Part shown: in pieces, positions 10,321 to 34,371 of the stretch
How positions within the stretch are numbered: position 1 is the first letter of the stretch
Layout: each line of letters begins with the position of its first letter
Assembly: GCF_014652695.1 (NCBI RefSeq)
Contig: NZ_BMZH01000001.1
Coordinates: 124,001 to 188,000, forward strand
Direction of reading: 5' to 3'
DNA: 64,000 bases
From: Algimonas arctica
Lineage (GTDB): Bacteria > Pseudomonadota > Alphaproteobacteria > Caulobacterales > Maricaulaceae
Notes under the pieces: model-generated
What the model saw: only the letters and a program-made list of their open reading frames with translations
Databases searched by the model: none
Told to the model about the DNA's origin: nothing
Position numbers and translations under genes: made by a program

Positions 10321-11037
10321 ATGACGACGACCCCACCCTATAAGCCGACAAAAGCTGGAGTGCTGTTTTCAGGCGGACAAGACAGCGCGACGGTGCTCGC
10401 GTGGGCGCTCACCCGGTTCGATCATGTCGAAACGATTGGGTTTTCCTATGGCCAACGCCACAATGTTGAGATGACAGTGCGAAAAGCGCTACTGGAACAA
10501 ATGCGGACGGAATTCCCGCAATGGTCTGACCGTCTCGGCGAAGACCATGTGATTGATTTGGCGGGCTTTGGCGCAATTAGCGAAACGGCGCTGACGCGAG
10601 AGCGAGAAATCGACACGCTGGAATCCGGTATGCCCAATACATTCGTTCCGGGGCGCAACCTGATCTTTCTAACCTATGCGGCGGCTCTCGGTTGGCGGCG
10701 TGGGTTTTCAGACCTCGTTGCCGGTATGTGCGAAGCCGATTTTTCTGGCTATCCGGATTGTCGTAAGGAAACATTGGACGCACAGATGCTGGCGATATCA
10801 TTGGGGCTAGAGCGGACGTTCACATTGCATTCGCCGCTCATGACACGGTCCAAAGCACAAGCCTGGGAGTTGGCGGAGACGCTCGGCGGGAACCCGCTGG
10901 TCGAGATGATCCGAACGGGCACCCACACGTGCTATATGGGCGTACGCGACACGTTGCATGCCTGGGGCTATGGCTGTGGTACGTGCCCCGCTTGCGACTT
11001 ACGCGCTAAAGGATGGGCGGATTACGCCGGATCATGA
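10321..11037 (+). CDS. queC: 7-cyano-7-deazaguanine synthase QueC
   Basis: QueC converts 7-carboxy-7-deazaguanine to preQ0 with ATP and ammonia, a step of queuosine synthesis. The PP-loop SGGQDS is at residues 17-22. The C-terminal zinc cysteines appear as [17 protein letters not shown]. The start used is ATG 10321; a GTG three codons upstream (10312) is also possible, and neither has a clear ribosome site. The stop overlaps the queE start as ATGA, coupling the two consecutive pathway enzymes. Confidence 0.96.
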
Positions 11038-31495: not shown

Positions 31496-32470
31496 TTGGC
31501 GCTTCTCGCCCCCATTTTATTGCTGACTGTCGGTCTCGTCATCCTTGTGGTGGCGGGGGACATACTTGTGCGCGGTGCTGCGGCCTTGGCCCGTCATTGG
31601 GGTGTTCCGGCACTGATCGTCGGTCTCACGGTTGTCGCGTTTGGGACGTCGGCGCCTGAGCTTGTCGTGAGTGTCAGTGCTGTGCTCGACGGTGTTGGTA
31701 ATATGGCCGCCGGTAATATCGTCGGGTCGAATATTGCCAACGTCCTGCTGGCGCTGGGTCTGCCCGCGCTTATTATGGCAATCCCCACGAATTTGAGCGG
31801 CGTCGCCCGCAATACATTCGTCTGTGTTGTCGCGACGGTTATGCTGATTGTCCTCGCCTTTCTCGGCAATCCATTGATTTGGTGGCAAGGGGGCATCCTG
31901 TTCGCGGGGATCGTTATCTACCTCATCTGGATGGCGATGTTAGCGCGTGCGGGCGTGGATGAGTCCATATTGGAAGAAATGGCGGAAATCGAAGAAGGCA
32001 AAAGTGGCCTTCCAAAATCGGTCTTTTGGGACATAGTTTATGTCGTTGCCGGATTGATCGGTTTGTTCCTGGGGGGCGAGTTGATCGTCACCAATGCGGT
32101 AAAGCTGGCATCCGGATTGGGTGTGTCGGAAACGATCATCGGCCTGACGATTGTCGCCATTGGGACATCACTACCTGAAATAACAACAGTTATTGTCGCG
32201 ACATTGCGCGGTCATTCCGAAGTCGCGATTGGCAATGTGTTGGGCTCCAACGTGTTCAACATTTTTGCTGTCATGGGTGCAGCGGGACTGGCTGGACCGG
32301 TTTATTTTGAGGATAATCTCTTCCAATTCGATCTGTGGGTGATGTTAATTGCGACCATCGTGTTGATGATGTTCGTGATGACCCGAAAGCCGATTGGCCG
32401 CAAAACTGGTGCGATCTTCGTGTTGGCCTATATCCTTTACATGCTCGCCGTCGTTTTCGGATTTAAGTGA
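31496..32470 (+). CDS. Calcium/sodium antiporter (CaCA family, YrbG-like)
   Basis: The 324-residue protein has about ten membrane helices and the two alpha-repeats of the family: VAFGTSAPELVVSVSA near residue 50 and VAIGTSLPEITTVIVA near 222, each followed by GN-GSN (AAGNIVGSNIANV, AIGNVLGSNVFN). It exchanges Ca2+ or another cation for Na+ or H+ across the inner membrane. The start is a TTG at 31496, the only start after an in-frame stop, so expression may be modest. Confidence 0.93.
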   Translation: MALLAPILLLTVGLVILVVAGDILVRGAAALARHWGVPALIVGLTVVAFGTSAPELVVSVSAVLDGVGNMAAGNIVGSNIANVLLALGLPALIMAIPTNLSGVARNTFVCVVATVMLIVLAFLGNPLIWWQGGILFAGIVIYLIWMAMLARAGVDESILEEMAEIEEGKSGLPKSVFWDIVYVVAGLIGLFLGGELIVTNAVKLASGLGVSETIIGLTIVAIGTSLPEITTVIVATLRGHSEVAIGNVLGSNVFNIFAVMGAAGLAGPVYFEDNLFQFDLWVMLIATIVLMMFVMTRKPIGRKTGAIFVLAYILYMLAVVFGFK

Positions 32471-32477
32471 CACGGCC

Positions 32478-32843
32478 ATGCTGTTTGAAATTGAAAAAGA
32501 CTTTCAGTTCGAGGCGGCGCATTATTTCGGTCATGCCGATGCGAATGATCTGTTTAAAAAAATTCACGGCCATAGTTTCTCAGGCCGGGTAACCTTACGC
32601 GGTCACGCGCAAGCGGAAAAAGGCTGGGTCCGGGATCTGTGGAAGATCGAACAGGTCATCAAGGACGTCGTTGAGCCGCTGGATCATAGTTTGCTCAATG
32701 AAGTCGAAGGGTTGGAACAGCCTTCACTTGAACAAATTGCGATGTGGATTTTTGAACGGCTTGCGCCGCGTCTTGACGGTCTGCACTGTGTCGAAGTCGG
32801 CCGCCCGTCATGTGGCGAACGGGCCAGAGTCTGGGCCGAATGA
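32478..32843 (+). CDS. queD: QueD/6-pyruvoyl-tetrahydropterin synthase family, lacking the catalytic Cys
   Basis: The 121-residue protein starts at ATG 32478, 7 bases after the antiporter stop. The zinc histidines are His15 (FEAAH) and His30/His32 (HGHSF), and the LDHSLLNE segment carries the Asp/His pair. Where E. coli QueD has its catalytic Cys27 (C-x-x-L-HGH), this protein has Phe26 (F-K-K-I-HGH). QueD makes 6-carboxytetrahydropterin for QueE. With queC and queE present it is the natural candidate, but the missing Cys leaves open a different pterin reaction. It is followed by SDR and folB genes. Confidence 0.85.
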   Translation: MLFEIEKDFQFEAAHYFGHADANDLFKKIHGHSFSGRVTLRGHAQAEKGWVRDLWKIEQVIKDVVEPLDHSLLNEVEGLEQPSLEQIAMWIFERLAPRLDGLHCVEVGRPSCGERARVWAE

Positions 32844-32860
32844 GGGTCTGGGCCGAATGA
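32829..32860 (+). repeat. 17-bp tandem duplication at the queD/SDR junction
   Basis: The 15-base string GTCTGGGCCGAATGA occurs at 32829-32843 and again at 32846-32860. Copy one holds the queD stop and copy two the SDR start. Each copy contains ATGA. Starting at the first ATGA gives ATG-AGG-GTC-TGG-GCC-GAA-TGA, a six-codon ORF (32840-32860) whose stop overlaps the SDR ATG. Confidence 0.95.
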
Positions 32861-33597
32861 AGACGGTTCTGATTACCGGCGGTGCAGCGCGTATCGGCGC
32901 GTTTATCGCGCGCGCTTTAGCAGCAGATGGCTGGAAAGTTTGTGTGCACTACCGCACCTCGTCGGGCCCTGCGGACGCCTTGGCGGCAGAAATCGGCGGC
33001 GTGGCGATCAAAGCAAATTTAAGAGTGCCGGGGGATTTGGCTGGCCTTATCGAATCCGCGCGGCAAGCGCTCGGCAGTCCGATTCACGCGCTCATCAATA
33101 ATGCCTCGACATTTGATCCCGATACGGTCGAAGATTTCACCAACGGCACTTTTGACCATCACATGGACGTCAATTTGCGCGCGCCACTCACTTTGTCACG
33201 GGATTTTGCCGCGCAAGCACCGGGACAGGGCTGTATCATAAATATCGTCGATCAGCGCGTGCTGCGTCCGGATCCCAGCTTCTTTACGTATAGTATAGCT
33301 AAAGCGGGGCTCTACTGGGCGACCCAGACGATGGCGCAGGCGTTTGCCCCGGATGTGCGCGTGAATGCCGTCGGTCCCGGCCCAACGCTTCGTAATCATA
33401 CGCAATCTGTTGATGAATTTGAGCGTGAAAAACGCCTGACGCTGCTCGGCAATGGCTCGCCCCCCGATCAGATTGTCAACGCTGTCCGCTATTTCCTGGG
33501 CGCGACCTCTGTCACGGGACAGATGATCGCTGTCGATGGCGGCCAACATCTAACGTTCGACGATACGACCACCGAATGGGGACCTGACCATGAATAG
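32857..33597 (+). CDS. SDR-family oxidoreductase, pteridine reductase/FolM-like
   Basis: The 246-residue protein starts at ATG 32857 (MKTVLITGGAARIG). It has the TGGAARIG cofactor loop, an HYR after strand 2 suggesting NADPH, NNAST, and the catalytic YSIAK. The run DQRVLRPDPSFFTYSIAKAG resembles pteridine reductases and FolM, which reduce dihydropterins or dihydrofolate. Position between queD and folB agrees. Its end overlaps folB by 8 bases. Confidence 0.85.
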   Translation: MKTVLITGGAARIGAFIARALAADGWKVCVHYRTSSGPADALAAEIGGVAIKANLRVPGDLAGLIESARQALGSPIHALINNASTFDPDTVEDFTNGTFDHHMDVNLRAPLTLSRDFAAQAPGQGCIINIVDQRVLRPDPSFFTYSIAKAGLYWATQTMAQAFAPDVRVNAVGPGPTLRNHTQSVDEFEREKRLTLLGNGSPPDQIVNAVRYFLGATSVTGQMIAVDGGQHLTFDDTTTEWGPDHE

Positions 33598-33991
33598 CCG
33601 TCCGATCCTCCGACGCTTTGGCCGCAAGCCAAACGCCTCAACCCGCATTTTTGTGCGTGGCCTACTTATTCAAGCCAGCATCGGCGTACATCCGCATGAG
33701 CATGAACAAACCCAACCCGTTATCATCGACATAGAGCTTGATATGGGTGGCATGGTTTTGCCCAAGGATGACCGCCTACACGAAACGTTGGATTATGGTT
33801 TAGTGGCGGAAAAGGCGGAAGAGCTAGCACTCGAAGCGCATGTGCAGCTGGTCGAAACGCTGGCGGAACGGATTGCGGATTGGGCGCTCTCAGCGGACGC
33901 GCGGGTTCAACGTGTCGCTGTCTCTATCGCGAAACCTCAAGCCCTGCTGAAAGCAGAAATGGCCGGGGTGGAAGTGGTCAAGTCGCGGTGA
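33590..33991 (+). CDS. folB: Dihydroneopterin aldolase
   Basis: The 133-residue protein has the FolB core after a roughly 16-residue basic N-terminal extension: GLLIQASIGVHPHEH (substrate loop), LDYGLVAEKAEELAL, LVETLAERIADWAL (active-site Glu) and SIAKPQAL with the catalytic Lys. It converts dihydroneopterin to 6-hydroxymethyl-dihydropterin for folate. It is coupled to both neighbours by overlaps (8 bases with the SDR; GTGA with the next gene). Confidence 0.93.
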   Translation: MNSRPILRRFGRKPNASTRIFVRGLLIQASIGVHPHEHEQTQPVIIDIELDMGGMVLPKDDRLHETLDYGLVAEKAEELALEAHVQLVETLAERIADWALSADARVQRVAVSIAKPQALLKAEMAGVEVVKSR

Positions 33992-34371
33992 CGACGTCGC
34001 TTTCGCTCAACGTCTATGGCACGCCATTGCAGCCGTGTTCGACGGATCCGGTGACGGGATATTTTCGCGACGGCTGTTGTGAAACGGGGCCGTCTGATCG
34101 TGGACGGCATATTGTTTGCGTCGTGATGACGGACGATTTTCTTCGCTACTCTAAGGCGCAAGGAAACGATCTCTCCACGCCGCGCCCTGAGTTTCGCTTT
34201 CCCGGATTGAAGGCCGGGGATCGCTGGTGTCTCTGTCTTGAGCGGTGGCGCGAAGCCCATGCGGCGGGACACGCCCCTAAAGTCGTTCTGGAAGCCACTC
34301 ACCAGATTACGCTTGAGCGTTTGCCACTTTCTACACTGAGAGCGTTTGCAGTGGATGCGCGCGACACCTAG
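33988..34371 (+). CDS. DUF2237 protein
   Basis: The 127-residue protein starts at GTG 33988, overlapping the folB stop. The family signature is strong: LNVYGTPLQPCSTDPVTGYF, RDGCCETGP, VCVVMTDDFL, GNDLSTPRPEF, PGLKAGDRWCLCLERW. Conserved cysteines suggest metal binding or a redox role, but no activity is established. Confidence 0.93.
   Translation: MTTSLSLNVYGTPLQPCSTDPVTGYFRDGCCETGPSDRGRHIVCVVMTDDFLRYSKAQGNDLSTPRPEFRFPGLKAGDRWCLCLERWREAHAAGHAPKVVLEATHQITLERLPLSTLRAFAVDARDT

Follow-up and report, generated by a model that had tools for sequence, protein, structure and literature searches.

Introduction

Among NTGA termination-reinitiation gene pairs, a -4 nt overlap of stop and start codons is the commonest arrangement (PMC10666635). 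The cost of widening such a junction is reported in different ways. Reinitiation in three native E. coli pairs fell by 40-80% at +14 nt (PMC10666635), and one study that a review cites for coupling without loss from -4 to +25 nt (PMC12548453) is given in PMC10666635 as showing a tenfold drop at +3 nt. Small reading frames placed at a junction can take part in coupling. Mycobacterial interspersed repetitive units (MIRUs) at start codons are insertions whose open reading frame couples with -4 nt spacing (Supply et al. 1997, via PMC12548453), and a synthetic short upstream frame, the 'nonsense peptide' nfORF, lost its boost when start or stop was removed (PMC13255528). A natural two-codon minigene in the axe-txe operon positively affects its downstream gene, with distance and frame both of consequence, and its authors propose mRNA protection besides coupling (PMC8708949).

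Here, we describe a tandem duplication in Algimonas arctica at the junction of a queD-like gene and the gene of an SDR family oxidoreductase (hereafter the SDR gene). The window, the whole stretch of 64,000 nucleotides analysed, is G000:C1:124001-188000, where G000 is the A. arctica assembly (3.25 Mb in 49 contigs); other genomes carry corresponding numbers. Features are listed in Table 1.

Table 1. Features at and around the queD-SDR junction (window positions).
Feature	Positions	Strand	Remarks
Sodium/calcium exchanger gene	31496-32470	+	Just before the queD-like gene in the row
queD-like gene, PTPS family, 121 aa	32478-32843	+	TGA stop 32841-32843; PF01242 E 4.2e-26
Duplication copy 1	32826-32842	+	AGAGTCTGGGCCGAATG; final queD codons and first ATG(A)
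Mini-ORF MRVWAE*, candidate (geometry only)	32840-32860	+	ATGA overlap with queD stop and with SDR start
SD-like GAGG	32842-32845	+	Formed via the copy-2 G; 11 nt before the SDR ATG; standard anti-SD assumed
Duplication copy 2	32843-32859	+	AGGGTCTGGGCCGAATG; ends in SDR start codon; one mismatch (G32845)
SDR gene, 246 aa	32857-33597	+	NF006597/PRK09134 SDR family oxidoreductase; NF006597 289.3 bits, cut-off 281
folB	33590-33991	+	TIGR00525 84.8 bits, cut-off 72.15
ORF with DUF2237 domain	within 33880-34371	+	After folB

Results

Genes of the locus

The spacing of the exchanger, queD-like, SDR and folB genes and the DUF2237 frame suggests a single operon, in which the SDR gene and folB overlap by 8 nt on the same strand. 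The queD-like protein belongs to the PTPS family, the family of QueD (6-carboxytetrahydropterin synthase), by its PF01242 match, which is the only one found in the genome. Against the equivalog model TIGR03367 it scores 83.8 bits (E 8.5e-24), under the cut-off of 89.25. Four residues before the HGH motif, it has Phe in place of the Cys of 2oba and 4ntm, a cysteine that we take to be catalytic in QueD. This Phe occurs together with a C-terminal [ST]CGE motif in 30/30 of the family sequences listed. The protein may thus be a PTPS whose cysteine has moved, or it may serve some other pterin function next to the SDR gene and folB. A queC homologue lies elsewhere in the window (10360-11004, that is G000:C1:134360-135004; TIGR00364 171.3 bits, cut-off 150.3).

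The duplication and the mini-ORF

The 17-bp tandem duplication that was originally proposed for this junction is present. Its two copies, spaced by 17 nt, are identical at 16/17 positions (94%) and differ at A32828 versus G32845; the stretch first pointed out, 32829-32860, covers the exactly repeated part. Relatives encode the arginine at the mismatch with either CGG or AGA, which is compatible with a base change in either copy. A 464-kb sample of the A. arctica assembly, with low-complexity pairs taken out, holds 20 tandem pairs of like identity with periods between 10 and 40, 19 of them with period 10-15. One Markov-shuffled copy of the same 464 kb, the comparison used here, yields 14 pairs in total, so that short-period tandem pairs are mostly the product of chance. 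The queD-SDR duplication is the only one of the 20 with a period above 15, and its 15-base core has exact matches at its own two copies only in the whole assembly. A chance repeat was rejected on these two grounds. The same uniqueness sets the repeat apart from MIRUs proper, which form a dispersed repeat family: no further exact match of the core was found in the assembly.

The geometry agrees with the original prediction to the base. A gap of 13 nt separates the queD stop from the SDR start, and the first copy's ATGA opens a frame, ATG AGG GTC TGG GCC GAA TGA, whose stop (32858-32860) overlaps the SDR ATG (32857-32859) in a second ATGA. The mini-ORF thus shares bases with the upstream stop at one end and with the downstream start at the other, in a frame that differs from those of both neighbouring genes. 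Alternative starts of the SDR gene were considered and set aside: in-frame candidates occur at gaps of +13, -32 and -56 only, and none falls between the queD stop and 32857.

The junction in relatives

The comparison covered 70 loci that contain an SDR ortholog, comprising that of the window, 29 relatives and 40 further stretches, seven of which came from outside the family and held queD in none. In 28 of the 70, queD was absent from the stretch (including L194 of G055, where the stretch is too short to hold it), which left 42 readable junctions, those of the window and 41 relatives. L032, whose SDR protein is 78% identical, and L033 appear to duplicate L004 and L193 and were excluded from the final count; G024 stands outside it with a match that begins at a contig edge. 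Under a rule that takes the overlapping in-frame start where several exist, and that therefore gives a favourable reading of overlap, queD and the SDR gene overlap in 37/41 relatives (-4 in 26, -8 in seven, -11 in two and -1 in two). The remaining four have gaps of 0, +2, +24 and +69, one each. Two junctions, L101 and L197, combine a -4 overlap with a second in-frame ATG at +11, which appears to be an in-frame N-terminal extension and no relay.

Neither the duplication nor the MRVWAE mini-ORF occurs at any of the 41 readable junctions, and the prospect raised at the outset, that all relatives might share the repeat, is not borne out. Of the relatives closest by SDR identity (76-79%), G004, G007 and G015 have a single-copy TTGA overlap, the overlapping state that a comparison with sister species was expected to reveal, and G002 has the +24 gap. 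Because it is absent from these 41 junctions, the comparison supports a duplication that is derived and lineage-specific and that would have split an ancestral stop-start overlap. The predicted ancestor holds insofar as a single-copy overlap is the usual state among relatives; its start codon may have been TTG and not the ATG first supposed.

Relay geometry and chance

Relay frequencies were estimated from co-directional gene pairs in 1.66 Mb from four genomes, with genes called by a simple custom program that rewards SD motifs and with spacers shuffled while their flanks were kept. For relays with -4 links and gaps of 5-60 nt, the count was 6/244 versus 4.63 expected (sd 1.15), and it includes two junctions, those of the window and G002, that were placed in the sample deliberately (4/242 without them). 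Gaps of 5-30 nt gave 5/141 versus 3.42, and the addition of -1 links gave 6/141 versus 4.40 and 7/244 versus 6.63 for the shorter and wider ranges, respectively. These stretches of four genomes therefore show no relay enrichment over short gaps, and the relay is neither commoner than chance nor conserved, the mini-ORF being found in 0/41 relatives and the tile of G002 being a different one. With the flanks and 13-nt gap of the window itself, 85% of shuffled spacers are still relays. Gap phases 1, 2 and 0 were represented by 5, 3 and 2 of ten NTGA...NTGA pairs, a small sample.

Simple arithmetic shows that any stop-free duplication whose length is 2 modulo 3 must convert an ATGA overlap into a relay, which applies to about one length in three. 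Since the present duplication is 17 bp long, spans an ATGA site and contains no stop, the relay arises automatically.

Shine-Dalgarno pairing and RNA structure

With the copy-2 G, the SD duplex before the SDR start reaches -6.1 kcal/mol, versus -2.7 with the copy-1 base (standard tail assumed); corresponding values in G004, G007 and G015 are -3.9, -2.7 and -6.2 kcal/mol. Ahead of the mini-ORF start, SD pairing is weak (-2.6 kcal/mol). An energy of -6 is reached by 27% of 397 called genes, a figure inflated by a gene caller that itself rewards SD motifs, versus 8% of 1600 random places. Where GAGG precedes genes in the sample, it stands at 5-8 nt in 35/56 cases and at 11 nt, its spacing here, in 3/56. 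An exact-pattern search for the anti-SD GGATCACCTCCTT and the 16S 3' end found no match in the assemblies of G000 or G002, in which it may be a variant; G015, G016 and G022 carry CCTCCTTTCT.

In free RNA, opening of 32852-32869 costs 12.5 kcal/mol. The cost drops to 4.5 when 32826-32855 is held open to mimic a ribosome positioned on the queD stop; part of this drop is built in, because the two regions have four bases in common. In free RNA, the mini-ORF start takes 15.95 kcal/mol to open, versus 10.07 for the start when the junction has a single copy. A stable RNA structure at the junction was rejected (z -0.61 versus shuffles).

Other split junctions

The 24-nt queD-SDR gap of G002 (L005), a one-contig genome, is tiled by two mini-ORFs, MSDAA* then MSIGQ*, and the tiling runs into the GTGA at the SDR start. 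When this spacer is shuffled, such tiling appears in 5.6% of cases. Within A. arctica, a second junction (L240, G000:C3:130964-130980) has its stop at 130966, its start at 130977 and a +10 gap tiled by MRDTV*. By name, we take this pair to be sbcD/sbcC-like. The downstream gene is present in 13/18 genomes including its own, and its start lies at -4 in 12/12 relatives where it was found; this junction, too, reads as a split of the overlap seen in relatives. The G002 and sbcD/sbcC-like splits are encouraging parallels to the queD-SDR relay. A third relay in the A. arctica sample spans a +37 gap in a pair that is presumably pheS-pheT. It was rejected as a clean split, for gaps in relatives are too variable (-1 to several hundred nt).

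More broadly, we compared junctions whose gap is 5-80 in one genome and lies between -11 and +2 in another; the 17 rows represent 15 distinct junctions. An in-frame start retains the overlap in 4/15, and in four of the other 11 the counterpart has a gap of 0 to +2, which is not an overlap. True overlap-to-gap cases include 3/7 relays (queD-SDR in G000 and G002, and the sbcD/sbcC-like pair in G000) versus about 1.7 expected; from a small and partly chosen sample, we claim no relay excess. The four non-tiled cases comprise three in which the stop is TAA or TAG in place of the relative's TGA, and one with uncertain starts.

Discussion

Our analysis describes a duplication that is real and derived and a relay that is mechanistically plausible and statistically ordinary. 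We see the relay as a mechanical outcome of the duplication, and selection is no part of our claim. Regarding the proposal that a relay preserves coupling, the derived duplication, the usual overlap in relatives and the exact mini-ORF geometry stand; a special or selected status of the relay finds no support, given its chance frequency.

We propose that coupling across the split overlap is explained by a relay together with SD-assisted initiation, a reading to which we assign a probability of roughly 0.55. In copy 1, the queD stop remains joined to an ATG, and the SDR start stands in an identical ATGA context 17 nt further on. A ribosome ending queD could restart at 32840, as at the old junction, read the six codons MRVWAE, terminate on the SDR start and restart there. 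In parallel, the same ribosome would unfold the RNA near the SDR start, and the copy-2 GAGG would permit direct initiation at 32857. Coupling is thus probably kept by two redundant routes, and the mini-ORF relay itself is a plausible one, as far as the geometry goes. In its favour, the weak SD of the mini-ORF resembles that of the SDR start in G004 and G007, unlike that in G015. Counting against this explanation, relay geometry occurs at chance level, the junction fold is no stronger than in shuffles, the mini-ORF start is harder to open than the single-copy start, and the GAGG lies off the 5-8 nt peak. The study cited for undiminished coupling up to +25 nt (PMC12548453) also weighs against it, although PMC10666635 gives that study otherwise. 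As +14 nt reduces reinitiation in the E. coli pairs, there would be room for a relay to help (PMC10666635).

Since copy 2 carries GAGG, translation of the SDR gene could persist without the mini-ORF, and a tentative alternative, which we hold to be distinctly less probable, is that the duplication gave this gene its own ribosome-binding site and left the mini-ORF as an unread by-product. The gain in duplex energy over the copy-1 base, the excess of such energies at called genes (inflated as noted) over random places, and the chance frequency of relays are all consistent with SD-assisted initiation only. It would nevertheless have to act from an 11-nt spacing and, without an upstream ribosome, to pay 12.5 kcal/mol at the SDR start; moreover, the first ATGA retains a reinitiation site of the ancestral type, so that some ribosomes should start there. 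Alternatively, queD-SDR coupling may be unneeded in A. arctica and the duplication simply tolerated. The range of junction geometries in the family (-11, -8, -4, -1, 0, +2, +24 and +69) would fit such neutral drift, but we consider it unlikely, as overlap is retained in 37/41 relatives under the overlap-favouring rule and, of the three gaps above 2 nt, those of the window (+13) and G002 (+24) are mini-ORF-tiled and only +69 is untiled. That the second copy is an assembly artefact seems very improbable: the evidence comes from the assembled sequence, in 49 contigs, but the copies differ by one base, a usual read is much longer than the repeat, and the queD-like and SDR genes are each intact.

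The relay with SD-assisted initiation, our preferred reading, could be extended to the genus, where insertions at overlaps would be kept preferentially if they chain mini-ORFs or stay in frame, and stepping-stone mini-ORFs (queD-SDR, sbcD/sbcC-like and G002) would be a general route for preserving coupling. We regard this extension as doubtful at present. The junctions nonetheless provide a natural before-and-after set for coupling: a 4-nt overlap in relatives, a six-codon relay in one species and two mini-ORFs in series in another. If the mini-ORFs do carry ribosomes across, they would reveal how an operon can absorb a small insertion at an overlap and would help to separate nearest-start reinitiation from scanning in native genes.

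Finally, the open-licence literature searched yielded no published relay made by tandem duplication, and the queD-SDR architecture is a variant of a known principle, a mini-ORF inserted at a stop/start overlap. Each end of MRVWAE is a -4 nt overlap of the NTGA type, of which 26/41 relatives have exactly one at this junction; NTGA pairs consist of a single overlap, whereas the window chains two via six codons. Like the axe-txe minigene, MRVWAE would be a natural mini-ORF within an operon, although the former does not tile the space between two stop/start overlaps. The nfORF and bicistronic designs raise translation of a target through a short frame with an internal SD that ends next to the target start, but they are engineered with strong SDs, whereas at queD-SDR the internal SD is only modest and queD would supply the ribosomes. 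With MIRUs, the junction shares a frame inserted at a stop/start overlap and -4 nt links; MIRUs appear to be mobile repeats, whereas the insert described here is private and arose by tandem duplication of 17 bp of the junction's own sequence.
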